From Rhodothermaceae bacterium (GTDB taxonomy: Bacteria; Bacteroidota; Rhodothermia; Balneolales; Cyclonatronaceae): a stretch of 51,538 nucleotides of DNA. The stretch spans positions 1 through 51,538 of the forward strand of contig JAIVHB010000128.1 in NCBI GenBank assembly GCA_020201275.1, in the 5' to 3' direction. The position numbers were made by a program, and so were the translations under genes. How positions within the stretch are numbered: position 1 is the first letter of the stretch; each line of letters opens with the position of its first letter. Under the pieces are notes generated by a model. The model searched no databases and was not told the origin of the DNA. It saw only the letters and a list, made by a program, of their open reading frames with translations. Of this stretch, positions 1,738 through 14,074 are shown one piece after another.

Positions 1738-4290
1738 ATGGCCCGTAAAAAAAAGAACGGAAATACCGGCGGTGGTGCGTTTATAACACCGGAGCGAAAA
1801 CTTGAGATAATCGGCGTTATCATTATGTCGATTGCCGTGCTGATTGCCCTGAGCATTGTCACCTACTCGCCAACCGATAATATTCTGATAAAAAACGCCT
1901 CAATCGGCGAACTTCTGAAGTTTGATGAGGGTACCGCCCTGCGTATAAAAAACGGGCTCGGGATTACCGGTGCATACCTCTCCTATTTTTTTGTATACAT
2001 CCTGTTCGGTTACCACAGCGCCATCCTTGCCGCCCTCACCTTGCTTTACGGCTGGTTCATTTTCCGGCATCACGATCTGTCGCGCCTGCACGGCACCGCC
2101 CTGCTCTATACCTGTGTGATGGCGCTTCTTGCGGCCATACTGGGCTGGATCGCCCTGGCCTTTGAAACCGATACCCACTCCTGGAGCGGCTTTGCCGGCC
2201 TTTCGTCGGCCAGGGTACTGAGCTACCTGACCGGCAAAGTGGGATCGTTTATCATCCTCGCATCACTCACTGTTATCTCAGCCCTTGTTATCGTAGACGG
2301 AAACATTCAGAATACCATCGACCGGTTTAAGAATGGTTTTGAACAGTTTAGGATGCGCCGCCAGGCGAAACGTGAACGCCGAGCAGCCGGCGATGAACTC
2401 AATAAGCAGGCAGCAGCCCGGCAACACGATCTTGACGATGTTGACGAAGGTGTAGGCGAGGTTGTGGTAAGCAGAACCCGAGGCAATGTGATCGAAGGCA
2501 CACCAGGACCCAAAAAATACCAGCTGGAGACTGAACGGGAAAAACCCAGCATTGACGAGATCATCGAAAAATCGAAAGAGCGAGACCTTACGCGGCATCA
2601 GCAGCAGCTTCTGGAAGAAGAAGCCATGAAAAATATGCCCTCGAGGGCTATCCTTGAAAAGCCTGGAGAGGGCGGTACAGGTGAAAAGACCGGCGAGGAT
2701 GATGTGGACGGACCGGAAATCTCCGTTTTTGTAGGCAAACAGGAAGAAGAAGCCGACGAGAAAGAGTTTGAAAAGCAGCAGCGGGCCAAAGAGATCCCGA
2801 TCATCAAATACCGGTTCCCGCATCCCGGCCTGCTCGATTCGCCCCCCAATGAGGGCAACGAGGTCGATTTTGACGAAATAAACGAAAACAAACTGATCAT
2901 TCTCGACAAGCTGAAGCGGCACAATATCGAGATAACGGCGATCGACGCCATCGTTGGCCCAACCGTCACCCTGTATGAACTGCAGCCTTCGCCCGATGTT
3001 AAGATCAGCCGCATTGAAAGCTATGCCAACGACCTGAAGATGGCCATGGCCACCCACGGGCTGCGCATCATCGCTCCTATTCCGGGAAAATCGGCGGTGG
3101 GCATCGAGGTGCCGAACCGCAAACGGGAAACCGTATTCATCAAAACGGTGATCGGATCCCGCAAGTTCATGGAAACCGATATGGACCTGCCGGTAGCCTT
3201 CGGCAAAACGATTGAAAACGAGATATTCATGCTCGACCTGGCCCGCCTCCCCCACCTTCTCATCGCCGGTGCAACCGGGTCGGGTAAATCGGTCGGGATT
3301 AATACCGTAATCACCTGCCTGCTCTACAAGTGCCACCCCGAAGACCTGAAATTTGTGCTCATCGATCCCAAAAAGATCGAACTTTCGCTTTACAGGAATA
3401 TTCAGAACCATTTCATCGCCACGCTGCCCGACGCCGAAGAGCCGATTGTAACCGACACCAGCCAGGTACTCGATGTACTGAACAGTGTCTGCAAGGAGAT
3501 GGACGAGCGGTATGAGCTTCTGAAAATGGGCGGCGTGCGCGATATCAAGGCCTATAACGCCAAAAAGAAAGCCGATCAGCTCGATATCGAACTCGGCCAC
3601 CGCCACCTGCCCTACATCATTGTGGTGATTGATGAGCTGGCCGACCTGATGATAACCGCCGGAAAAAGCATTGAGGAACCGATCGCGCGGATTGCCCAGC
3701 TTGCCCGGGCGGTGGGTATCCATATGGTGATCGCCACGCAGCGACCATCCGTTAATGTGATCACTGGTACAATAAAGGCCAATTTCCCGGCCCGGATCGC
3801 CTATCAGGTCGCGTCCAAAATAGATTCCCGCACCATCCTGGATACCATGGGAGCCGACCAGCTCGTTGGACGTGGAGATATGCTCTTCTCCAGCGGAGGG
3901 GCCGGCATGGTTCGTGTGCAGAACGCTTTCGTCTCTACAGAGGAAGTGGACCGTATCACGGCTTTCATCGGAAACCAGATGGGATACAAAAAACCATATT
4001 TATTACCGCCACCCGACACAGATAGCGGCCAGACTGCCGGTATCCTGGACAAGAGCGAACGCGACGACCTGTTTGAGGAGGCTGCCAAAGTGGTGGTTCT
4101 GCATCAGCAGGGTTCTGTATCGCTGCTTCAGCGAAAGCTGAAACTCGGCTACAACCGGGCAGGCCGCATCATCGACCAGCTCTACGCAGCCGGGATCGTG
4201 GGTCCCTATCAGGGAAGCACGGCACGCGAAGTAATGGTACAGGACGATGACGAACTCAGAACTATCCTGGAGGATATTGATGCGGTATAA
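1738..4290 (+). CDS. ftsK: DNA translocase FtsK/SpoIIIE
   Basis: This 850-residue septal DNA pump moves and resolves chromosome termini during division. The N-terminus has about four membrane segments (roughly residues 25-46, 75-110, 120-145 and 165-187). A charged, Glu-rich linker follows (about 200-350), then the RecA-like motor. Walker A is GATGSGKS at 511-518 and Walker B is VVIDELADL near 630. A C-terminal winged-helix gamma domain (about 775-840, with QRKLKLGYNRAGRIIDQL) would recognise orientation motifs in DNA. The linker is short compared with the enterobacterial protein. ATG starts 3 bases after comB. The 3' end overlaps the lolA-like gene by 11 bases. Confidence 0.97.
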   Translation: MARKKKNGNTGGGAFITPERKLEIIGVIIMSIAVLIALSIVTYSPTDNILIKNASIGELLKFDEGTALRIKNGLGITGAYLSYFFVYILFGYHSAILAALTLLYGWFIFRHHDLSRLHGTALLYTCVMALLAAILGWIALAFETDTHSWSGFAGLSSARVLSYLTGKVGSFIILASLTVISALVIVDGNIQNTIDRFKNGFEQFRMRRQAKRERRAAGDELNKQAAARQHDLDDVDEGVGEVVVSRTRGNVIEGTPGPKKYQLETEREKPSIDEIIEKSKERDLTRHQQQLLEEEAMKNMPSRAILEKPGEGGTGEKTGEDDVDGPEISVFVGKQEEEADEKEFEKQQRAKEIPIIKYRFPHPGLLDSPPNEGNEVDFDEINENKLIILDKLKRHNIEITAIDAIVGPTVTLYELQPSPDVKISRIESYANDLKMAMATHGLRIIAPIPGKSAVGIEVPNRKRETVFIKTVIGSRKFMETDMDLPVAFGKTIENEIFMLDLARLPHLLIAGATGSGKSVGINTVITCLLYKCHPEDLKFVLIDPKKIELSLYRNIQNHFIATLPDAEEPIVTDTSQVLDVLNSVCKEMDERYELLKMGGVRDIKAYNAKKKADQLDIELGHRHLPYIIVVIDELADLMITAGKSIEEPIARIAQLARAVGIHMVIATQRPSVNVITGTIKANFPARIAYQVASKIDSRTILDTMGADQLVGRGDMLFSSGGAGMVRVQNAFVSTEEVDRITAFIGNQMGYKKPYLLPPPDTDSGQTAGILDKSERDDLFEEAAKVVVLHQQGSVSLLQRKLKLGYNRAGRIIDQLYAAGIVGPYQGSTAREVMVQDDDELRTILEDIDAV

Positions 4291-4930
4291 TACACTGATT
4301 TTATTACTTTTCCTGATCGTTCCGGTGTGGGCTGCCGCTACCGGTGTTGCAGCAACCGGCGGGATGAATTTTCCGTTGCCCGGCGAAACAGATACCGGTC
4401 CCGGGCCCCTGCACGGGCAGGAAACCGGAATACAGGCCTCTGACAAAATTACCGAACTCAGGGCGCGGTTGTTCACCAGCGATACCGTGGTCACCACAGG
4501 AACCATCTGGATAGGCACAGTAAGCTACAAGGTGGTTACCGATCAGCAGCTGGTAACCGTTGATGGAAGCGTATCGAAGGTATACAACCGCCACCAGAAC
4601 AAGCTTATAATCAGTTTTTACGACCCTGAAGAGGACGATTTCGCCCCATCACGTTTTCTTGCCGGCACTCAGGAACGCTACGTCGTGCAGGAGGAGGACG
4701 GTGATGACGATACCATAATCACACTTACCTCCGACGATCCGTTTGAAATGTTCCGCATGGTGCGCATTTACCTGACCGAAAATGGCATTCCATGGCTCAT
4801 AACAGGCATCGACCAGACCGATAATGAATTTTCAACCCGGTTCGAAAGCGGTGTTTTCATTCCGGCCACCGAAGACCTGTTCGACATCTCCTGGCCCGGC
4901 AATGCCGAAATTGTAGACCTCCGCAACTGA
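4280..4930 (+). CDS. lolA: LolA-like outer-membrane lipoprotein carrier protein
   Basis: This is a 216-residue exported protein. I place the start at ATG 4280 rather than 33 bases upstream, because 4280 is preceded by a CTGGAGG Shine-Dalgarno and opens directly into a signal peptide (MRYNTLILLLFLIVPVWAA). The mature part has the LolA-type half-barrel pattern: a region around GTIWIGTVSYKVV, then a turn of the form V-DG-S--Y-R. LolA shuttles lipoproteins from the LolCDE complex across the periplasm. The position directly behind ftsK, overlapping it by 11 bases, matches the common ftsK-lolA order in bacteria and supports the call. Sequence similarity by eye is modest. Confidence 0.75.
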   Translation: MRYNTLILLLFLIVPVWAAATGVAATGGMNFPLPGETDTGPGPLHGQETGIQASDKITELRARLFTSDTVVTTGTIWIGTVSYKVVTDQQLVTVDGSVSKVYNRHQNKLIISFYDPEEDDFAPSRFLAGTQERYVVQEEDGDDDTIITLTSDDPFEMFRMVRIYLTENGIPWLITGIDQTDNEFSTRFESGVFIPATEDLFDISWPGNAEIVDLRN

Positions 4931-4936
4931 CAGCCG

Positions 4937-5953
4937 ATGAAGCGAAACACTCTGAACATCATCTTTGGGGTTTTAATCGGTGCATTGTTCATATGGTTGT
5001 CGCTCCGGAATGTGGTGGTTGACGAATTTGTTGAGATTTTTAGTGAAATTCAGCTTGGATGGGTTTTTCCATATCTGTTCATCGCCTTCGGAAGCATCGT
5101 TCTCCGTGCCGAGCGCTGGAGGATGCTCATGCAGAAAGAGAACAGGGTGCCAGGAAGGCTGAATGTGAACTCCGCCGTTGCCCTAGGCATGATGGTCAAC
5201 TACGCCATTCCCCGGCTGGGTGAAGTATCGAGAGCCGCATATGTAGCCCGAAAGGAGAAAATCAGCACATCCAACATTTTCGGTACCGTTGTACTGGAAA
5301 GGATTGTCGACCTGGTAACAATGATGTTCCTGTTACTCGTTGTTCTGCTGGTAACCGTCTCCGACAGCCAGACGCTTCGTTCCCTGTTCGGTGACGACAC
5401 CGTAAACCTTCTCCGGGTTTTTTACGATCCGGTAAATGCCATTCTTTTGATAACCGGGTTGTTACTCAGCCTCATTTTTGGTTACCGGATACTGAAGCAC
5501 CTGTTATCGGCAGCCAATCGTGAGAAAGCGCGTACATCCAGGTTCAGGAGCCTGATTGTAACCTTTGTTGAAGGACTGATCTCGGTTCGACATATCAAAA
5601 ACTGGCCCTGGTTTCTGCTGCTCACCGCGTTGATGTGGATTTGTTACATACTGATGAGCTATCTCCCCTTCTACGCATTTTCTCTGCCCGGCATCTACGG
5701 TCTTGGCTTCGGAGATGCCATTGCCGTAACGGCCATCGCCTCCATTGGTGTGGTTCTGCCCTCACCCGGCGGCGTGGGCACCTATCATTATTTCGTGAAA
5801 CAGACCCTTCTGGTACTGTGTGCCGTACCGGCCGCAACCGGGCTGGCCTACGCCGTTGTGACACATGGGGCCATGATGATTGTTATATTTACGACATCAC
5901 TGATTCTGCTGGTGATGAACCAGATTGTTGGCCGGCGAAAACCGGCAGAATAA
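4937..5953 (+). CDS. Flippase-like integral membrane protein (YbhN/UPF0104, LPG-synthase transmembrane-domain family)
   Basis: This 338-residue polytopic protein has about eight hydrophobic segments spread over its length. It shows the family features RAERWRMLM near residue 56, PRLGEVSRAAYVARKE near 92, and a conserved glycine/proline-rich loop (VLPSPGGVGTYHYFVKQT) near 275. The family includes the membrane half of lysyl-phosphatidylglycerol synthases (MprF) and free-standing proteins proposed to move lipids or glycolipids. No aminoacyl-transfer domain is present. It starts 6 bases after the lolA-like gene, so it is probably in the same operon. The substrate cannot be told from the sequence. 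Confidence 0.85.
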   Translation: MKRNTLNIIFGVLIGALFIWLSLRNVVVDEFVEIFSEIQLGWVFPYLFIAFGSIVLRAERWRMLMQKENRVPGRLNVNSAVALGMMVNYAIPRLGEVSRAAYVARKEKISTSNIFGTVVLERIVDLVTMMFLLLVVLLVTVSDSQTLRSLFGDDTVNLLRVFYDPVNAILLITGLLLSLIFGYRILKHLLSAANREKARTSRFRSLIVTFVEGLISVRHIKNWPWFLLLTALMWICYILMSYLPFYAFSLPGIYGLGFGDAIAVTAIASIGVVLPSPGGVGTYHYFVKQTLLVLCAVPAATGLAYAVVTHGAMMIVIFTTSLILLVMNQIVGRRKPAE

Positions 5954-5994
5954 ATCAGGTGACCATTCTCAGCTAACATTTACATGTTGCCTGT

Positions 5995-6002
5995 TAGTTT
6001 TG
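5995..6002 (+). promoter_or_regulatory. Putative -7 box TAGTTTTG upstream of the barrel/HU-SPOR/Tol operon
   Basis: An exact match to the TAnnTTTG -7 element known from Bacteroidota primary-sigma promoters lies in the 185-base gap before the operon that starts at 6139. No convincing -33 TTTG is seen at the usual spacing. The implied leader is about 125 bases. This is inferred from sequence only. Confidence 0.35.
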
Positions 6003-6138
6003 TATTTTAGCAGGAATTTGCAATAACTGTGCTTCCCGATCCATTTCATTTTACAGTACCGTTTTTTCAGAAACGGCATACTAAAAACAGTTAATTCAAG
6101 TTTGTTTGAATAATCACGAATCAAGCTAACCAAAAGAG

Positions 6139-7851
6139 TTGAAACGACTACCACTGCTTTCTCTCCTCTGTTTTATACCCATTCTTGCCGGTGCACAGGA
6201 CAGAACCACCCCTACATCCCTACTTCCGGATATTGACCCTCAGGATATTGAGATCCGCGGGGAATTCCGTGCGCGTTTTCCGGGCTTAAACCGGCAGCCT
6301 ATTCTCGGCTTCAACCCGACACCACGCGTGTTCCGGCTCGACCCAAACCGGATGCCTTTTATTGAGAACCCCGACCAGGTGGTTGCAACAGTCCAGGTTA
6401 CCAGGCTTGAAGCACCGGGTGGTCCGGCACCTCAGTATATCAGGTTTCCCCAGCAGGGGTACCTGCACAGCCGGTTCGGCGTAGGGCGCTACATCAGCCC
6501 GGAGGCCGATGTCTATGCCGGAGTCCCCCTCACGGAGAATACCTGGTTCCGCGGATCGCTGAATTACCACTCTTCCGACGGTCACCGCAACCGTGATGTA
6601 CAGCCCTCATCCTTCCGTTTCATGGACGCGACCGCCGGCATTCAGACCAGGCTTAGCAACAGAACAAAGCTTGGTGTTGATTTCTCCCTGTTAAGTGATT
6701 TCAATTACGGTATTCAGACTCCTCGCCCCGCATTTCCAGATCCCTTTTCAGATCCAACCGGAAATCCCCGGAAAACTTATAACGGATACTCGGCAGGAAC
6801 CGATTTCACCCATTTTTTCAATGCGTTCAGAAAGTTTGAGGGCGACATCTCATACAACTACTATAAAGTAAACTACAATTTTCCGAATGTTAACCTGGTG
6901 CGCTCCGAGGAACAGCGCCTGAAAGGGTCTGTTTATTACCAGTGGCCTGGTACATCGATAGGTTCCATATTCGGAATCGGTGCCTTTACCGATGCCGCAA
7001 AGCTGGTTAATACCCTCCGGGACGACACCAACTGGCATATTTCGGGTGTAAAGGGCAGCTGGGAGCAGCCGCTATCGTCCGGCATGAAACTAAACCTGAT
7101 CGGACGGGGATATTTTACCTTTGATGAAAAAGACGGAAACAAATTCTATGCCTATCCCGATGCCCGCGTTGAATTCTCAAGCGTTCCCAACCTGACACTG
7201 GTCGGCAGAATTGGCGGATATATCCTGAATAACGGTCTCAGGGGCTTGCATGAAACCAACCGGTTTGCAATGGAAGACAACGGACTGATCAACCAACGTA
7301 CCGTTTTCGGACTGGGTGAAGCCCGTTATGATTTCCTCGGATCTGCACAGATATATGCCGGTCTTGCATACTATATCTATGAAAACTACCAGTATTATGA
7401 GGATTTCCAGGATATCGGTTCACCCCTGTTTGGGGCGCTGTATGACGACGATACCCGGCGCCAGAAGCTCTACGGTGGATTCCGCTACATCAACCGCCCT
7501 TACGGATTTACGTTCTTCACCGAGGTTTACGTACAAAACACAAAACTCGACAGCGGTATCGAAGCACCGTACGCAGAAAAGCTTGGTATTACAGCCGGCA
7601 TGACGATCCGGCCGGTTAGCAAGCTGAATATTACCATCTGGTCGGACTATATCGGGAAAAGACCGTACAATCTTGATGGAAACAAGCTTGCGGGCTATTA
7701 TCTTCCCGGTGGCCGGATCGAATACCGTTTCACTGACGATTTTGGTCTTTATCTCAAAGTAAACAACATTCTCGACCAGGAATATGAGATCTGGAATGGT
7801 TATACAGAACGACTTTTCCAGGTCTATGGCGGGGTAACCATAAAACTCTGA
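6139..7851 (+). CDS. Outer-membrane beta-barrel protein, TonB-receptor-like barrel without plug
   Basis: This 570-residue protein starts at a TTG codon and opens with a signal peptide (RLPLLSLLCFIPILAGAQ). The rest is dominated by amphipathic aromatic beta strands. It ends with the pattern of TonB-dependent receptors: a segment LKVNNILDQEYEIWNGY, then a short strand ending in Leu. No clear plug (Secretin/TonB-box N-terminal) domain is visible. It may therefore be a reduced receptor-type barrel or an unrelated outer-membrane channel. It is followed after 1 base by the small HU-like gene and is the first gene of an operon that ends with an ExbB/ExbD/TonB set. This placement suggests an energised or septum-linked envelope role (inference). 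Confidence 0.72.
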   Translation: MKRLPLLSLLCFIPILAGAQDRTTPTSLLPDIDPQDIEIRGEFRARFPGLNRQPILGFNPTPRVFRLDPNRMPFIENPDQVVATVQVTRLEAPGGPAPQYIRFPQQGYLHSRFGVGRYISPEADVYAGVPLTENTWFRGSLNYHSSDGHRNRDVQPSSFRFMDATAGIQTRLSNRTKLGVDFSLLSDFNYGIQTPRPAFPDPFSDPTGNPRKTYNGYSAGTDFTHFFNAFRKFEGDISYNYYKVNYNFPNVNLVRSEEQRLKGSVYYQWPGTSIGSIFGIGAFTDAAKLVNTLRDDTNWHISGVKGSWEQPLSSGMKLNLIGRGYFTFDEKDGNKFYAYPDARVEFSSVPNLTLVGRIGGYILNNGLRGLHETNRFAMEDNGLINQRTVFGLGEARYDFLGSAQIYAGLAYYIYENYQYYEDFQDIGSPLFGALYDDDTRRQKLYGGFRYINRPYGFTFFTEVYVQNTKLDSGIEAPYAEKLGITAGMTIRPVSKLNITIWSDYIGKRPYNLDGNKLAGYYLPGGRIEYRFTDDFGLYLKVNNILDQEYEIWNGYTERLFQVYGGVTIKL

Positions 7852-7852
7852 T

Positions 7853-8047
7853 ATGGATAAAAAATTCAACAACGCATTCAGAGAAGCTCTCAGGAGCTCG
7901 GTAACAGAGGGGAAATCCGTTTCGATTTCCGGTCTTGGAACATTCAAACCGGTGCACATAAAGCAGCATGAAGCCGAAAATGAAGAGGGGCTTAAAGTGC
8001 TTATGCCACCCAGGGATACCATTGAATTTACACCGGAGGGCACCTGA
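7853..8047 (+). CDS. Minimal HU-fold DNA-binding-like protein
   Basis: This 64-residue protein is much shorter than canonical HU (about 90). It retains the HU core: an amphipathic helix (FREALRSSVTEGKSV), the signature SGLGTFKPV (residues 25-33), and an arm-like segment ending in PPRDTIEFTPE. The N-terminal helix pair and the C-terminal helix of HU are missing. The ATG is 1 base after the barrel gene stop. Its own stop overlaps the next ATG in TGATG, so translation is probably coupled. It most resembles the divergent HU branch seen beside SPOR proteins in Bacteroidota. DNA binding is plausible but unproven; a partner role with the next protein is inferred. Confidence 0.72.
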   Translation: MDKKFNNAFREALRSSVTEGKSVSISGLGTFKPVHIKQHEAENEEGLKVLMPPRDTIEFTPEGT

Positions 8048-9573
8048 TGGATAAAGTCAGTCATATTCAATTCGTTGAAGACCTTGCTGCAAAACTCGGT
8101 CTCACTGAGGAGGAAACGGTAAAGAAGCTTACAGAACTGATTCTGATCATCAAAATGGAATCGGAATCTGGTAAGATGATTATCGACGGACTCGGTATAT
8201 TTACCACTAAAGGCAAAATCCTCACCTTTATTCCAGACGAATCGTTTGAGCTCGAGATTAACCATAATTATGCCGGTATGATGCCGGTAGAAATCGAGGA
8301 ACCCAAACCTGGAACGGCCGCTTCATCTGCAAAAACCCAAAAAGAGGATGATAATACTGAAGAATCCGACGCTGTGACGGACGATTTTGAGGAGGAGGAA
8401 TTTGTTGATGTAATTGATGAACAGGACCCCTTCGATCTCGACGATGATGAAACCGGAACGGAATCAACCTCATCTTCGAAAAGCACAGGAGAAAAGAGCG
8501 GTGATTATACCAGTGACGCTGCTGAAAAAGCACGAAAGGCGGCACTTGAGGCAGAAGAGCAGAAAATAAAAGAAGATGAGGAAGAGCAAGAAGAAGCTGC
8601 CCGGAAAGCCGAACTCGAAGCTCAGGCGGAAGAGAAGAAAAAGGAAGATGCAACAGCGGCACTTGCAGCCAGGAAGGCCGGGGAATCAGAAAAAGCACGG
8701 GCTGAAGCTGGAAAAGTGAAAGCATTGGAAAAAGAAGCCGCTGAGAAGAAAAAGGCTGAATCAAAGGAGCGTGCAGAGACAGCTTCAGAAAAATCTGCCG
8801 ACAAATTATCTGGAAGCAGAGCTGCAACAGACGAAGAAATCCGTCCCGAATGGGTCGAACCGGAAGCAGAAACCGCTCAGAAAGTCCGCTCTGACGGGAA
8901 AAAACCCGCGATTAAAGAGATACCGGCATACGACCGGGCCCGTCCGGACAGCAATACAGGTACGATCATAGCCATACTTGTTGCTGCTGTTGTAGTAGTT
9001 GCCGGTGCACTCTATTTATTCGGGTTCCTCACCGTTTCAGAGCCTGCCACCACTACGTCTCCGGTTATTAGTGAGCAAACAGAAGTACCACCTGCTAGTA
9101 CAGATTTACCGGGAATCGAAGATACCGAGACCGGCATATCTGCCACTGAACAACTTGCTCAGGAAGAAGCTGCCAGGGATGTAACCGCACAACCCGCTCC
9201 AGCTGTGGATGATCAGCCTGCTGCTCCTTCTGCCGAAACGCAGCAAACACCTGCACCGGTACGCGAAACTGCTGCACCTGCTGCGTCTTATGGCCTGCGC
9301 GGCACCATGAACACTACAATGGCAAGACCTTACACCATTGTGGTTCATTCACTGACATCACGTACAGATGCAGAGCGGGAAGCCGCCGTAGTTGCAGAGG
9401 CCGGTTACAGAAGCACCTGGTTCAGGGTCGAACTGCCCAACGGAAGTGTCAGATGGAGAGTGAGCATCGGGCAATTTGCCAGCAGTGATGCCGCTGTTGA
9501 GGCCGCCAGACAGCTTCCGGAACCCTACTCAGCCAACAATTTCATCAGTCGTATCGAATCCTACAATCCATAA
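8047..9573 (+). CDS. HU-like domain / transmembrane / SPOR domain fusion protein
   Basis: This is a 508-residue single-pass membrane protein. Residues 1-75 form an HU-like domain (helices around HIQFVEDLAAKLGLTEEETV, then IDGLGIFTTKGKILTFIPDE). Residues 76-150 are very acidic. Residues 155-260 are an Ala/Glu/Lys-rich coiled coil. A transmembrane segment lies at about 305-328 (TIIAILVAAVVVVAGALYLF). It is followed by a Pro/Thr/Ala-rich periplasmic linker and a C-terminal SPOR domain (about 427-508). SPOR domains bind denuded septal peptidoglycan. The topology therefore puts the HU-like part in the cytoplasm and SPOR in the periplasm, a possible chromosome-to-septum tether (inference). The start overlaps the previous stop by 1 base. 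Confidence 0.87.
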   Translation: MDKVSHIQFVEDLAAKLGLTEEETVKKLTELILIIKMESESGKMIIDGLGIFTTKGKILTFIPDESFELEINHNYAGMMPVEIEEPKPGTAASSAKTQKEDDNTEESDAVTDDFEEEEFVDVIDEQDPFDLDDDETGTESTSSSKSTGEKSGDYTSDAAEKARKAALEAEEQKIKEDEEEQEEAARKAELEAQAEEKKKEDATAALAARKAGESEKARAEAGKVKALEKEAAEKKKAESKERAETASEKSADKLSGSRAATDEEIRPEWVEPEAETAQKVRSDGKKPAIKEIPAYDRARPDSNTGTIIAILVAAVVVVAGALYLFGFLTVSEPATTTSPVISEQTEVPPASTDLPGIEDTETGISATEQLAQEEAARDVTAQPAPAVDDQPAAPSAETQQTPAPVRETAAPAASYGLRGTMNTTMARPYTIVVHSLTSRTDAEREAAVVAEAGYRSTWFRVELPNGSVRWRVSIGQFASSDAAVEAARQLPEPYSANNFISRIESYNP

Positions 9574-9593
9574 ACATCTCAATATCCTCCAAC

Positions 9594-10334
9594 ATGTCCA
9601 TGCTCTTTACCCTTATGTATTCTTTTATTCTTCAGGCCACAACCGAACTGGCGGAGAATGATACCCTTGCCGCCATTACAACTGAACCTGAAGGTCAATC
9701 GTTCTTCCATATTCTGCTGCAGGGTGGATACATCATGATACCGATCGGTATTCTGTCGATTCTTGCGATCTTTGTTATAGCAGAACGCTGGAGAGTTCTC
9801 AACAACTCACAAATGGACAATGAAAAATTCCTCGGAACTGTCGAAGAAATGCTCAAAGAGGGCAGTACCCGCCAGGCCATCCGCTATTGCGAGGAAATGG
9901 ACAAGCCTCTGGCCAGAATCCTGAAACAGGGTATAAAACGGCTGGGCAGGCCCATACTGGATATAGAAGATGCCATAAAAAACGCGGGGAAGCGTGAGAT
10001 TCACATGCTCGAAAAGAAGATGGACTGGCTTGCCACCATTGCCGGTGTTGCTCCGTTGCTGGGTTTCCTGGGTACGGTTACCGGTATGATTCAGGCCTTC
10101 ATGGAGATTCAGTCGCTGCAGGGGAATGTTAACCCGAGTGTACTGGCCGGCGGTATATGGGAAGCCCTCATAACAACCGCAGCGGGTCTTGCCGTAGGTA
10201 TTTTTGCCTTTTTCTTCTATAACTACCTCATCAGCCGCATCAACCGGATGGTATTTGACCTTGAAGTATCTACCACCGAATTCATTGAACTCCTCCAGAA
10301 ACCTGCACCCAAGAAAGAAACCGTACTGCGATGA
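9594..10334 (+). CDS. MotA/TolQ/ExbB proton channel family protein
   Basis: This 246-residue inner-membrane protein has an N-terminal segment, a first clear TM at about 42-66 (GYIMIPIGILSILAIFVIAERW), a cytoplasmic helical region, and two further TMs at about 140-160 (ATIAGVAPLLGFLGTVTGM) and 183-210. The GVAPLLGFLGTVTGMIQAF stretch is the family hallmark of the pentameric channel that, with ExbD/TolR, turns proton flow into force on a TonB/TolA partner. The stop overlaps the next gene by 4 bases. Choosing TolQ over ExbB is not possible from sequence alone. The SPOR neighbour favours a division/Tol-like role; the TonB neighbour favours transport. Confidence 0.93.
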   Translation: MSMLFTLMYSFILQATTELAENDTLAAITTEPEGQSFFHILLQGGYIMIPIGILSILAIFVIAERWRVLNNSQMDNEKFLGTVEEMLKEGSTRQAIRYCEEMDKPLARILKQGIKRLGRPILDIEDAIKNAGKREIHMLEKKMDWLATIAGVAPLLGFLGTVTGMIQAFMEIQSLQGNVNPSVLAGGIWEALITTAAGLAVGIFAFFFYNYLISRINRMVFDLEVSTTEFIELLQKPAPKKETVLR

Positions 10335-10738
10335 ATTTCCGCCCGCTAAATGAAGTCCGCAAGCCGTTGTCTGTCTTTTCCCTCTCATCCCTGACCGATA
10401 TCGTGCTTCTGCTGCTGATTTTCTTCCTACTAACGTCGTCCTTTGTCTCCAATTTCGGCATCAGGGTGAATGTGCCCAGGGCTGATACCAGTGCACAGAC
10501 CCAGCCACAGTACATCAATGTTACGGTGACCAAAGAGGGGGATTTCTATGTGGGTGGCGAGCAGGTGAGCAAATCGCTCCTTGCCGTGGCCATCAGAACC
10601 GAGTTTCAGAAAAATCCACAGGGCACACTTGTGCTTCGGGCCGACAAGGATGCAATAATTGACAATGCCGTGTTCGTTATGAACATTGGAAAAGCACTCA
10701 ATATGAATATCATGATGGCCACAGAACGGGGTATCTGA
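10331..10738 (+). CDS. ExbD/TolR family biopolymer transporter
   Basis: This 135-residue protein has one N-terminal TM (about 20-42, LTDIVLLLLIFFLLTSSFV). It carries the essential membrane Asp (D23) that is protonated in ExbD/TolR motors. The periplasmic domain follows with the usual pattern LVLRADKDAIIDNAVFVMNIGKAL. It overlaps the exbB/tolQ-like gene by 4 bases (ATGA) and precedes the TonB-like gene by 4 bases. It acts as the rotor/clamp partner of the upstream channel in the inner membrane. Confidence 0.92.
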   Translation: MNFRPLNEVRKPLSVFSLSSLTDIVLLLLIFFLLTSSFVSNFGIRVNVPRADTSAQTQPQYINVTVTKEGDFYVGGEQVSKSLLAVAIRTEFQKNPQGTLVLRADKDAIIDNAVFVMNIGKALNMNIMMATERGI

Positions 10739-10742
10739 TCCT

Positions 10743-11567
10743 ATGAAACGAAGAAAGCTAACTCAGGAAGAAAAGTTTGGCCTTACCACAACTGTAGGTG
10801 CCCATATTTTTCTTATTCTCATTGCCATACTCATCATCACCCGGCCGGTTGAAGACGATCGCATAGCTTTCATTGAAATAACCCTCGGGGAATTCCGTGA
10901 CGGAACCCTGGCTGAATTCAGCCAGGAGCAGAATCCGGTGGTCGCCACGCGTCCAAGGCCTACACCCGTGCAGGCTGAAATACCCCGGCCGGAACCCGTA
11001 AGGGAGCAACAGGAACAGGTTGAACGGCAGGAAACGGCCAAACCGGTCGAATTACCGGAACAGACCCAGGATATCCAGGAAGAGGTTGTAGCCACACCTG
11101 AAACCCGGCAAATTGACCCAACTGTTGTTATCAGGGAAGAAAACCGGGAAGAACAGGTAGTAAGGCCGGAAACTCCCGTAAGAGAGGCTGAAACCGAACG
11201 GGAGGGGGCACTTACCAGCGGCGACATTCGTGGGCGCACAGGCAATATTGAGGCCGATCAGGGTACCGGGCGCGATTTGGACCGTTCTGCGCCTTTTACC
11301 CTTGAATGGGAAGGCGACATAGAACGTGCTCCCCTTCAGCAACCACTGCCCAATTACACGGCAGAAGTGGAAGCTATTATCACGGTAAGGTTTGAAGTGC
11401 GCCCCGATGGTACCGTTGGCCGGATCACTCCTATACGGCGTATGAGCCCTGAGCTTGAACGTGAAGTAAACAGGACACTCCGTTCATGGCGTTTCTCCAG
11501 ATTGCCGGGTGGCCTGCCCCAGGAACCTCAGTTCGGGGTTATCACATTCCGCTTCGTGCTTGAATAA
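10743..11567 (+). CDS. TonB/TolA-like energy transducer
   Basis: This 274-residue protein has a single N-terminal TM (about 17-38). A long Pro/Glu/Arg/Gln-rich periplasmic spacer (about 55-185) follows, then a C-terminal TonB-type domain (about 195-274: AIITVRFEVRPDGTVGRI, then LRSWRFSRLPGG, then GVITFRFVLE). It would couple the ExbB/ExbD motor to an outer-membrane or peptidoglycan partner. The barrel at the head of the same operon is an obvious candidate. The stop lies only 2 bases from the convergent glycogen phosphorylase stop, leaving no intergenic room for a terminator. Confidence 0.9.
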   Translation: MKRRKLTQEEKFGLTTTVGAHIFLILIAILIITRPVEDDRIAFIEITLGEFRDGTLAEFSQEQNPVVATRPRPTPVQAEIPRPEPVREQQEQVERQETAKPVELPEQTQDIQEEVVATPETRQIDPTVVIREENREEQVVRPETPVREAETEREGALTSGDIRGRTGNIEADQGTGRDLDRSAPFTLEWEGDIERAPLQQPLPNYTAEVEAIITVRFEVRPDGTVGRITPIRRMSPELEREVNRTLRSWRFSRLPGGLPQEPQFGVITFRFVLE

Positions 11568-11569
11568 TA

Positions 11570-14074
11570 TCAGGCCTGTTTTTTTTCCCGCCTCTTTATG
11601 GCCTTCTCACCTGACTTATCGATCTCGCACCCCCATATTTCGGTGGCATATTCATAGATAGTTCGATCTGATGAGAACTTTCCGATACGGGCAGTATTGT
11701 AAATCGCCTTTTTGAACCACTCCTGGGGTTTCCTGTATAACGCTTCCACTTTTTTCTGCGTGTCGGCATAGGCTTCGAAATCGGCACAAACCATGAAATA
11801 GTCGCCTCCATCGGTTAATGCATGGACGATACTGTGAAACAGGTTTGGGTTTTCCGGACTGAAAAAGCCATCCCTGATCTGATCAATAGCCTGCTTCAGC
11901 TCTTTGTTGGCATTCAGATAGTCCCATGGGTTGTATCCCTCCTTGCGAAGACGTTCGATTTCATCGACAGTAAGGCCGAATATGAAGATGTTGTCATCAC
12001 CTACTTCTTCCTTTATCTCGATATTGGCACCGTCGAGCGTACCAATGGTTATAGCGCCATTCAGGGCAAATTTCATATTTCCGGTACCTGATGCTTCCAT
12101 TCCGGCGGTTGAAATCTGTTCTGAAAGATCGGCGGCCGGTATGAGGCGTTCCGCCAGCGAGACACTGTAATCAGGCAGGAAAACACACTTCAGCTTGTCG
12201 CCCACTTCATGATCATTATTGATAACATCTGCGATGGAGTTGATCAGCTTGATGTGCATTTTGGCCATTGTATAGCCCGGTGCCGCTTTACCGGCGAACA
12301 GCACGGTTCTCGGCTGGAACGGGGCATCGGGGTTAGCCTTGATCCGGTTATACAGCACAACCGTATGCAAGGCAGCCATCAGCTGGCGTTTGTACTCATG
12401 TATCCGCTTGATCTGAATATCGAAGATGGAATCAACATTCAGGCGGATCCCCATTTTCTTATCAACAAACGCGGCAAGTCTTTTCTTGTTTTCCTTTTTG
12501 ATACCGGCGAATGCTTTCACAAACGCCTTGTCATCGGCATACTTGTCGAGTTGCTTCAATTCATAGAGCGCATTCACCCAACCATCGCCAATTTTATCGG
12601 TTATGAGATCCGACAGTTTCGGGTTACACTGTTTGAGCCAGCGCCGTGGGGTTATGCCGTTTGTTTTATTGGTGAATTTCTCGGGCCACAGCTCATAAAA
12701 ATCCCGGAATATTGTCTTAATGATCAGGTCGGAATGCAGCTGTGCAACACCGTTCACCTTGTGCGAACCAACAATACCAAGGTTGGCCATTTGCACGCTT
12801 GGTTGCTCGCCTTCGCTGATGATCGACATTCTGCGAACCCTGCTCAGATCGTCACCAAATTTGTCGTGCACTGTATTAAGGAAACGCTTGTTGATTTCAT
12901 AGATGATCTGCAGATGCCGCGGCAGCAATGAGCGTACCAGCGATACCGGCCAGCGTTCCAATGCTTCCGGCAGCACCGTATGGTTGGTGTATGCCATCGT
13001 TTTGGTTGTGATGCCCCAGCTGGTATCCCAGTCGAGTCCTTCCTCGTCCATCAGCAACCGCATCATTTCAGGGATCGCAAGATTGGGGTGAGTGTCGTTG
13101 CACTGTACAGCCACTTTTTCGGGTAATTTTGTCAGGTCACTGTTGCTCTTCTTAAAACGCTCCATAATATCCTGCAGCGTGGCCGACACAAGAAAATACT
13201 CCTGCTTCAAACGCAACTCCTGCCCGACAAATATCTTGTCGTTGGGATACAGGATCCGGGATATGTTCTCATGCAACTCCATATCGCGGACAGCCTCGAT
13301 GTAATCGCCCTGGTTAAACCGGCTTAGATCTAGTGAGGTTGTGGATGTAGCTTTCCATAGCCTGAGATTATTAACGACCTCATTTTTATACCCAGGTACC
13401 GGCATATCATGGGCCAGGGCAAATACATCCTGGGTATCGACCCAGCGAAACCGAAGATCGCCCTTTTCATCGGTGTAGGGTACCGAACGGCCATGAAATT
13501 TCACCCTTCGCACAAGTTTTGCCCGCGGACGGTCCCACGGAAATCCGTACTGAAGCCAGTTATCGGGCTGTTCAACCTGATATCCGTTCACAATCTGCTG
13601 ATGGAAAATACCGAAGTCATAACGAATACCATAGCCGTATCCTGCAATGCCAAGAGTGGCCATGGAATCGAGAAAGCATGCAGCAAGCCTGCCGAGACCA
13701 CCGTTTCCGAGTGCCGCGTCCTGTTCGGTTTCCCTGATCTGATCATAATCAAGGCCCAGTGATTCGAGGGCTTCCTTGGTTTCATCCATCATACCAAGGT
13801 TTATCAGCGCGTTGTCGAGCAATCTGCCGATCAGAAACTCCATTGAGATGTAATACACCCGTTTGGAATCATCTCTATAGTATCCCTGCTGTGTTTTGAG
13901 CCATTTGTCATGCAACCTGTCGCGCACCGATAGCACCACACTTTTATAGATGTCCCAGTCAGATGCCGAGTGTTCATCGCAGGCCAAAGTAAACCGCAAA
14001 TGGTTTGATATATCTCTCTTGATGGACTCTACGTCCATACCTGTCCGCGTAATTGATTCTGTAATTTTCGACAT
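11570..14074 (-). CDS. glgP: Glycogen/starch (alpha-glucan) phosphorylase
   Basis: This 834-residue GT35 enzyme cleaves alpha-1,4-glucan with phosphate to give glucose-1-phosphate in the cytosol. Family signatures run the full length: YYISMEFLIGRLLDNALINLG near residue 75, NGGLGRLAACFLDS near 125, NTMKFAL-type PLP site (SGTGNMKFALNGAITIGTLDG) near 665 with the pyridoxal-phosphate lysine in GNMKF, and the glucan-site segments QCNDTHP and YTNHTVLPEALE. It is complete and monocistronic as far as visible, with about 120 bases before ispE. It belongs functionally with the branching enzyme and MalQ genes further along the window. Confidence 0.97.
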   Translation of the reverse strand: MSKITESITRTGMDVESIKRDISNHLRFTLACDEHSASDWDIYKSVVLSVRDRLHDKWLKTQQGYYRDDSKRVYYISMEFLIGRLLDNALINLGMMDETKEALESLGLDYDQIRETEQDAALGNGGLGRLAACFLDSMATLGIAGYGYGIRYDFGIFHQQIVNGYQVEQPDNWLQYGFPWDRPRAKLVRRVKFHGRSVPYTDEKGDLRFRWVDTQDVFALAHDMPVPGYKNEVVNNLRLWKATSTTSLDLSRFNQGDYIEAVRDMELHENISRILYPNDKIFVGQELRLKQEYFLVSATLQDIMERFKKSNSDLTKLPEKVAVQCNDTHPNLAIPEMMRLLMDEEGLDWDTSWGITTKTMAYTNHTVLPEALERWPVSLVRSLLPRHLQIIYEINKRFLNTVHDKFGDDLSRVRRMSIISEGEQPSVQMANLGIVGSHKVNGVAQLHSDLIIKTIFRDFYELWPEKFTNKTNGITPRRWLKQCNPKLSDLITDKIGDGWVNALYELKQLDKYADDKAFVKAFAGIKKENKKRLAAFVDKKMGIRLNVDSIFDIQIKRIHEYKRQLMAALHTVVLYNRIKANPDAPFQPRTVLFAGKAAPGYTMAKMHIKLINSIADVINNDHEVGDKLKCVFLPDYSVSLAERLIPAADLSEQISTAGMEASGTGNMKFALNGAITIGTLDGANIEIKEEVGDDNIFIFGLTVDEIERLRKEGYNPWDYLNANKELKQAIDQIRDGFFSPENPNLFHSIVHALTDGGDYFMVCADFEAYADTQKKVEALYRKPQEWFKKAIYNTARIGKFSSDRTIYEYATEIWGCEIDKSGEKAIKRREKKQA

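Follow-up and report, generated by a model that had tools for sequence, protein, structure and literature searches.

Six genes in the 51,538-nucleotide contig JAIVHB010000128.1 of a Rhodothermaceae bacterium (the whole stretch analysed, hereafter the window) encode, in this order, a receptor-type barrel, a short HU protein, an HU protein joined through a membrane helix to a SPOR domain, and an ExbB-ExbD-TonB-like motor set, and much of the phylum Bacteroidota has kept this set linked. We regard the operon as a candidate for the machine, so far missing, that draws the outer membrane inward when the cell divides. As far as the accessible text of a 2025 survey of force transducers goes, Bacteroidetes have no identifiable tol-pal loci, how the outer membrane is constricted or stabilised in such Bacteroidota is an open question, and PorE is proposed as a putative tether between outer membrane and peptidoglycan, with further systems expected (PMC12204202). 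In our own searches TolB_N was matched in 0/60 relatives and 9/198 phylum genomes, with positive controls. The literature that we searched on HU-CCDC81/SPOR, on SPOR with ExbB in Bacteroidetes, on Tol-Pal in Bacteroidota and on essential-gene screens contained nothing on this operon. A phylum dominant in gut and marine environments thereby gains a defined, widely conserved gene set with named parts and testable predictions.

All six genes lie on the forward strand. The barrel gene (6139-7851) starts with TTG and encodes 570 residues with a signal peptide. It is followed by HU1 (7853-8047; 64 residues), an N-terminally short HU domain resembling HU-CCDC81_bac_1, which overlaps by one base the HU2-TM-SPOR gene (8047-9573; 508 residues). 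The latter comprises an HU2 domain of HU-CCDC81_bac_2 type lacking a DNA arm (8047-8304), a long acidic linker, a single transmembrane helix (8965-9021) and a periplasmic SPOR domain (9328-9519). Then come the ExbB/TolQ-type proton-channel subunit, of an operon-specific lineage (9594-10334), the ExbD/TolR subunit with its membrane aspartate (10331-10738) and the TonB/TolA-like force transducer (10743-11567), made of an N-terminal transmembrane helix, a linker and a TonB_C-type C-terminus (11370-11561; PF03544). The gaps from barrel to transducer are exactly 1, -1, 20, -4 and 4 bases, and the open reading frames bear out the tight packing described in an earlier note on this DNA. Pfam recognises HU1 (PF00216), SPOR (PF05036, 2.4e-08), MotA_ExbB (PF01618, 1.2e-32) and ExbD (PF02472, 2.6e-22). 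It returns no match for the barrel or for the window's own HU2, whereas the HU2 orthologues in G019 and G028 exceed the cut-off of PF18175 (HU-CCDC81_bac_2, the companion model HU-CCDC81_bac_1 being PF18174). The identities that the earlier note gave to the HU-TM-SPOR, ExbB/TolQ and ExbD/TolR genes hold on these matches.

Gene-order conservation, set beforehand as the test that could refute that note's reading, extends beyond close relatives: it is seen in the order and in the class, and also in several of the phylum's families. In 34 Balneolales loci from whole genomes, the succession FtsK, LolA-like, YbhN, barrel, HU1, HU-SPOR, ExbB, ExbD, TonB runs without a break as far as the retrieved sequence extends, the exceptions being two HU1-HU2 fusions. 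A barrel scan of named genomes gave 80 named loci, nearly all from Balneolaceae or Balneolales and from genera that include Fodinibius, Gracilimonas, Balneola and Rhodohalobacter, from which we assign the window to the order Balneolales. The six-gene order is complete in 67 of them, and the other 13 comprise ten contig ends, two mergers of HU1 and HU2 (a tandem in L150 and a single-HU hybrid in L207) and, in L173, an ExbD reading frame that is split. Median gaps across loci are 3, -4, 14, 2 and 5 bases. The same order is found in class Rhodothermia and in three families of the phylum (f19, f35 and f36), HU1 and HU2-SPOR being one gene outside the class. Because the order is kept in all the same-order loci examined and in these distant families, the linkage is more than chance would produce. 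The phylum-level genomes compared are probably Bacteroidota proper, since they give strong PF18175 matches and one locus has a neighbouring gene for type IX secretion (PorP/SprF).

The set of six, although its order is kept, is not closed. In 20 of the 21 loci examined in class Rhodothermia and the other families, the barrel gene is immediately preceded by a gene of about 1000 codons that reads in the same direction. Ten of its products align along their length and share a signal-peptide end, and two of the products were confirmed as TPR proteins. A profile built from the upstream proteins detected the barrel with its TPR neighbour at another 20 loci of the phylum, some of them in Flavobacteriaceae-like genomes. 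In the Balneolales-centred genomes the gene is unlinked, with one full-length copy in 39 of the 41 searched. The copy in the window's own genome (G000:C173:7860-10808) has strong TPR matches and lies with GTPase/CBS genes on one side and a gene for EPSP synthase on the other. On this evidence, a secreted TPR protein of about 1000 residues belongs to the set as its seventh component. The TonB-like gene, on the other hand, accompanies the others in just 2 of the 12 loci from class Rhodothermia.

Such departures could mean that the locus is a loose and ancient envelope neighbourhood kept by co-expression, made of two sub-machines, a TPR-barrel pair at the outer membrane and HU-SPOR-ExbB-ExbD-TonB at the inner membrane. 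The pair indeed stays together where HU-SPOR has moved away, as in the Flavobacteriaceae-like genomes, so that the parts need not form a single permanent complex; the occasional absence of TonB fits as well. However, the whole set recurs, tightly spaced, in three or more distant families in addition to the two orders or classes studied, and the barrel has a conserved tail that calls for a partner. We consider this explanation quite unlikely.

That tail is N-terminal in the barrel protein. The structural model has about 105 disordered residues (pLDDT mostly below 50 in the N-tail) followed by some 22 strands over residues 108-569 (pLDDT 83.7), and every one of its best PDB matches is a TonB-dependent receptor, in keeping with the receptor-type barrel that the earlier note had recognised and that Pfam misses. 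No plug family (PF07715) was matched in 42 barrel members at E 0.01, so that the protein is, on its predicted fold, a TonB-dependent-receptor barrel without a recognisable plug. The predicted disordered tail (residues 25-90; 6211-6408) is nonetheless its most conserved part, with a mean majority-residue fraction of 0.71 versus 0.36 for the barrel, and it contains a strand, DIEIR (6244-6258), that resembles a TonB box and may act as one; in other families EIEVV, EIVVT, EIEIV, SLSIY or TFEVE are aligned with it. Since the tail is conserved yet unstructured, it points to a binding partner, for which the operon's own TonB-like protein would be the natural candidate. Alternatively, the tail might be a reduced plug that occupies the barrel lumen.

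The motor that would act on this barrel is of a lineage of its own. An orthologue of the operon ExbB (above 300 bits) is present in 54 of 60 relatives, and none of the 41 high-quality genomes among them (completeness of 90% or more, contamination of 5% or less) lacks it. The relatives also carry one divergent second ExbB. The GTxxG motif is present in 75/75 Balneolales and the aspartate motif in 68/72. That second copy belongs to an exbB-exbD-exbD motor set with no TonB adjoining, and TonB_C is matched at five other places in the genome. A tree was built from 28 operonic ExbBs and five second copies, the latter all from Balneolales; it separates the two groups with 100/100 support, and its operonic branch divides by host groups. 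Because the tree separates the copies, and the second motor and the other TonB_C matches lie elsewhere, the operon motor is, to judge by its phylogeny, a dedicated and ancient lineage apart from the general Ton motor. Horizontal acquisition of the operon was considered and rejected, the ExbB tree tracking host groups. The NCBIfam models for TolQ and ExbB both fall below their cut-offs, and the second ExbB likewise prefers tolQ.

The label TonB-like given to the last gene of the operon was right as to architecture, with an N-terminal transmembrane helix and, in most relatives, TonB_C over the cut-off; the window's own protein falls just short of PF03544 (23.6 bits alone against a cut-off of 24.6, or 24.6 with the frame's neighbours counted). 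The motor-box [ST]xxxH, which holds the TonB/TolA histidine of the transmembrane helix, is found in 44/70 Balneolales, 2/2 Rhodothermia and 3/11 other phylum transducers.

The same data bear on another possibility, namely that the operon is a dedicated TonB-dependent transport system in which the barrel moves a housekeeping substrate, or a lipid or protein, with its own ExbBD-TonB, HU-SPOR being merely co-expressed or used for positioning. The fold of the barrel is that of TonB-dependent transporters, the TonB-box-like strand is N-terminal and the C-terminus of the transducer is of TonB rather than TolA type by family score. Such a transporter would however do without a plug, and it would sit in a core locus present once in every high-quality Balneolales genome, unlike nutrient transporters, in genomes that already hold a general motor and other TonB_C proteins. 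Moreover, we know of no role for SPOR or an HU tandem in TonB transport. We thus find transport unlikely to be the function.

The two HU genes bear on what the machine would do in the cytoplasm. Burroughs and colleagues reportedly described, in 2017, Bacteroidetes proteins of the form HU-CCDC81_bac_1/bac_2-TM-SPOR. The operon has the same HU-HU-TM-SPOR order, its HU2 matching PF18175 and its HU1 resembling PF18174, but in Balneolales and Rhodothermia the gene is split in two. What is new relative to those proteins is the linkage to a barrel, a motor and a TPR partner. Although the window's HU1 reaches only E 0.13 against HU-CCDC81_bac_1, among 30 orthologues seven match that model at E 0.01 and 11 match HU domain 1 of eukaryotic CCDC81, and 20-22 of 24 fused homologues match both bacterial CCDC81 models. 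HU1 and HU2 are fused in L039, L041 and L150 as well as across the phylum, and a natural HU1-HU2-SPOR fusion exists in some members of genus g5. Since HU1, HU2 and SPOR form one gene in other Bacteroidota families, the two HU genes here are a split form of the known tandem HU-CCDC81-TM-SPOR protein. That HU1 is a stray fragment was rejected on its conservation in 30 orthologues and its fusion to HU2. In two Flavobacteriaceae-like genomes, a 4HBT thioesterase gene comes after HU-SPOR; the 4HBT superfamily also includes ybgC of tol-pal operons.

The earlier note saw in HU1 a minimal HU protein, and it does hold an HU domain, but an incomplete one whose first element is helix 2 (positions 23-82 of the 90 in the profile) and which lacks the RNP arm tip. 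Of 78 HU1 sequences only one has the R/K-N-P arm tip, and HU2 has no arm in its predicted structure. Median net charges are 0 for HU1, about -8 for HU2 and -26 for the linker. The L150 tandem is confidently predicted (pLDDT 88.8, pTM 0.80), and its closest PDB folds are microtubule-inner proteins of axonemal doublet microtubules, followed by single-chain IHF. The matched axonemal chains are probably CCDC81 proteins, a view helped by the fitting of CCDC81b models into the axonemal inner junction (PMC11961760). With arm tip and arm absent and a neutral to acidic charge, we read the HU tandem as a putative protein-docking module rather than a DNA binder. The model of the earlier note, of the Burroughs type, had the HU tandem bind DNA and SPOR bind septal glycan, coupling nucleoid to septum as the operon's main role. 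It can appeal to HU superfamily membership, to the single transmembrane helix between the HU and SPOR parts and to FtsK directly upstream in Balneolales, but the loss of helix 1 and of the arms, the charges and the axonemal best folds make it improbable. The link to nucleoid DNA thus finds no support here, even if some DNA binding by the tandem would be conceivable.

The rest of the joint envelope machine that the note had envisaged is favoured by gene order, by the fusion of HU1 with HU2-SPOR and by the separate motor lineage. The operon could thus be a dedicated, proton-driven, trans-envelope machine, similar to Tol-Pal, that couples septal peptidoglycan to the outer membrane, a reading to which we give an even chance. 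The ExbB/ExbD motor, of TolQR type, would drive the TonB/TolA-like transducer, which would grip the TonB-box-like tail of the plugless barrel and in this way pull on the outer membrane itself rather than gate import, with the long periplasmic TPR protein as a partner. The cytoplasmic HU1/HU2 tandem and the periplasmic SPOR would together span the membrane as a single protein or, in the window, as a unit of two chains. The SPOR family binds denuded septal glycan, through which HU-SPOR could place the machine at the septum or sense it there, the HU tandem offering a docking site for proteins on the cytoplasmic side. Septal localisation, contact between tail and TonB, and a role in constricting or tethering the outer membrane are what we infer from these parts. 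If true, a TonB-dependent-receptor barrel would here be a handle for force and not a transporter.

A Tol-like role is suggested by the dedicated TolQR-type motor, the TonB/TolA-like transducer, the TPR partner and SPOR, and also by core conservation, by FtsK upstream in Balneolales and by the 4HBT gene of the two genomes above. Like Tol-Pal (TolQ-TolR-TolA-TolB-Pal-CpoB), the operon joins a TolQR-type motor and a single-TM transducer in one operon, and both have a TPR partner, a link to septal glycan (SPOR, by family knowledge) and housekeeping conservation. It differs in the absence of TolB_N among the 60 relatives and of Pal within the operon, where Pfam finds no OmpA/Pal domain, in having a receptor-type barrel as its outer-membrane partner, and in the HU-CCDC81-SPOR protein. 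With the Ton system (ExbB-ExbD-TonB and its transporters) it shares the motor, a TonB_C-like transducer and a TBDT-type barrel with a TonB-box-like strand, but not a recognisable plug, and its motor lineage and its constant linkage to HU-SPOR in Balneolales set it apart. The more specific claim, that the operon together with the unlinked TPR gene is the missing Tol-Pal equivalent of Bacteroidota, with a TonB-type motor, a plugless barrel as outer-membrane anchor and a septal-glycan/HU-CCDC81 coupling, is one that we advance tentatively and think somewhat doubtful. Counting against a machine like Tol-Pal are the unlinked HU-SPOR of Flavobacteriaceae-like genomes, the scarcity of TonB-like genes at Rhodothermia loci, the patchy motor-box histidine and the lack of a Pal-like peptidoglycan-binding lipoprotein in the operon. 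PorE, in the accessible text of the survey, is the published rival for the tethering role: it is proposed to fill the same gap in the same phylum, but it is an unrelated lipoprotein fusion with no motor described in its locus there (PMC12204202). The vWA force transducers of the same text, also reported in Bacteroidetes and Rhodothermaota, likewise combine a tolQR-like motor, a transducer and a TPR gene in one locus, but their transducer is a vWA protein, and barrel, HU and SPOR do not figure in them (PMC12204202).

The operon is preceded, on the same strand, by neighbours conserved in Balneolales (1738-5953), namely FtsK (1738-4290), a LolA-like gene (4247-4930) and a YbhN/LPG-synthase-TM gene (4937-5953), an association that does not imply membership of the machine. 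Between the last of these and the barrel lies a 185-bp gap (5954-6138, forward strand), the likely promoter region. The Bacteroidota-type promoter pattern had 0 matches in the window, where about 1 was expected. The gap holds a sigma-70-like match (5979-6008), and the end of the TonB-like gene a terminator-like hairpin with a T-run (11558-11585, forward strand), each in a number that is at chance level for the region; the two fit a single transcription unit.

The window's own genome does encode the proposed seventh component outside the window: a secreted TPR protein, roughly 1000 aa long and present in one copy (L247:7836-10814, on contig C173 of G000), is the orthologue of the gene that immediately precedes the barrel gene in other parts of the phylum, and in Balneolales this TPR gene is unlinked to the operon. 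Among the Balneolales upstream neighbours, the LolA-like gene (window 4247-4930) overlaps the end of FtsK with its 5' end, and a match to LolA is found in only some of its orthologues (best 1.6e-06).

At the other end of the operon, no TonB-like gene was detectable 3' of ExbD in most loci of class Rhodothermia (L101, L102, L104-L106, L108-L110, L139). One Balneolaceae MAG has two reading frames in place of a single ExbD (L173:5894-6297), a split that is a frameshift or an assembly error.

In one Balneolales MAG (L207:10503-11501), the HU pair is replaced by an apparent single hybrid HU domain, fused to TM-SPOR, that looks HU1-like at its start and HU2-like at its end. Balneolales HU1 (window 7853-8047 and orthologues, alignment A3) also matches HU domain 1 of eukaryotic CCDC81 in 11 of 30 members (best 3.1e-07), which is of interest for how that ciliary family arose.

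A 4HBT thioesterase gene comes after HU-SPOR in Flavobacteriaceae-like genomes (L127:9886-10401, L137:9831-10346); the ybgC of tol-pal operons belongs to the same superfamily.
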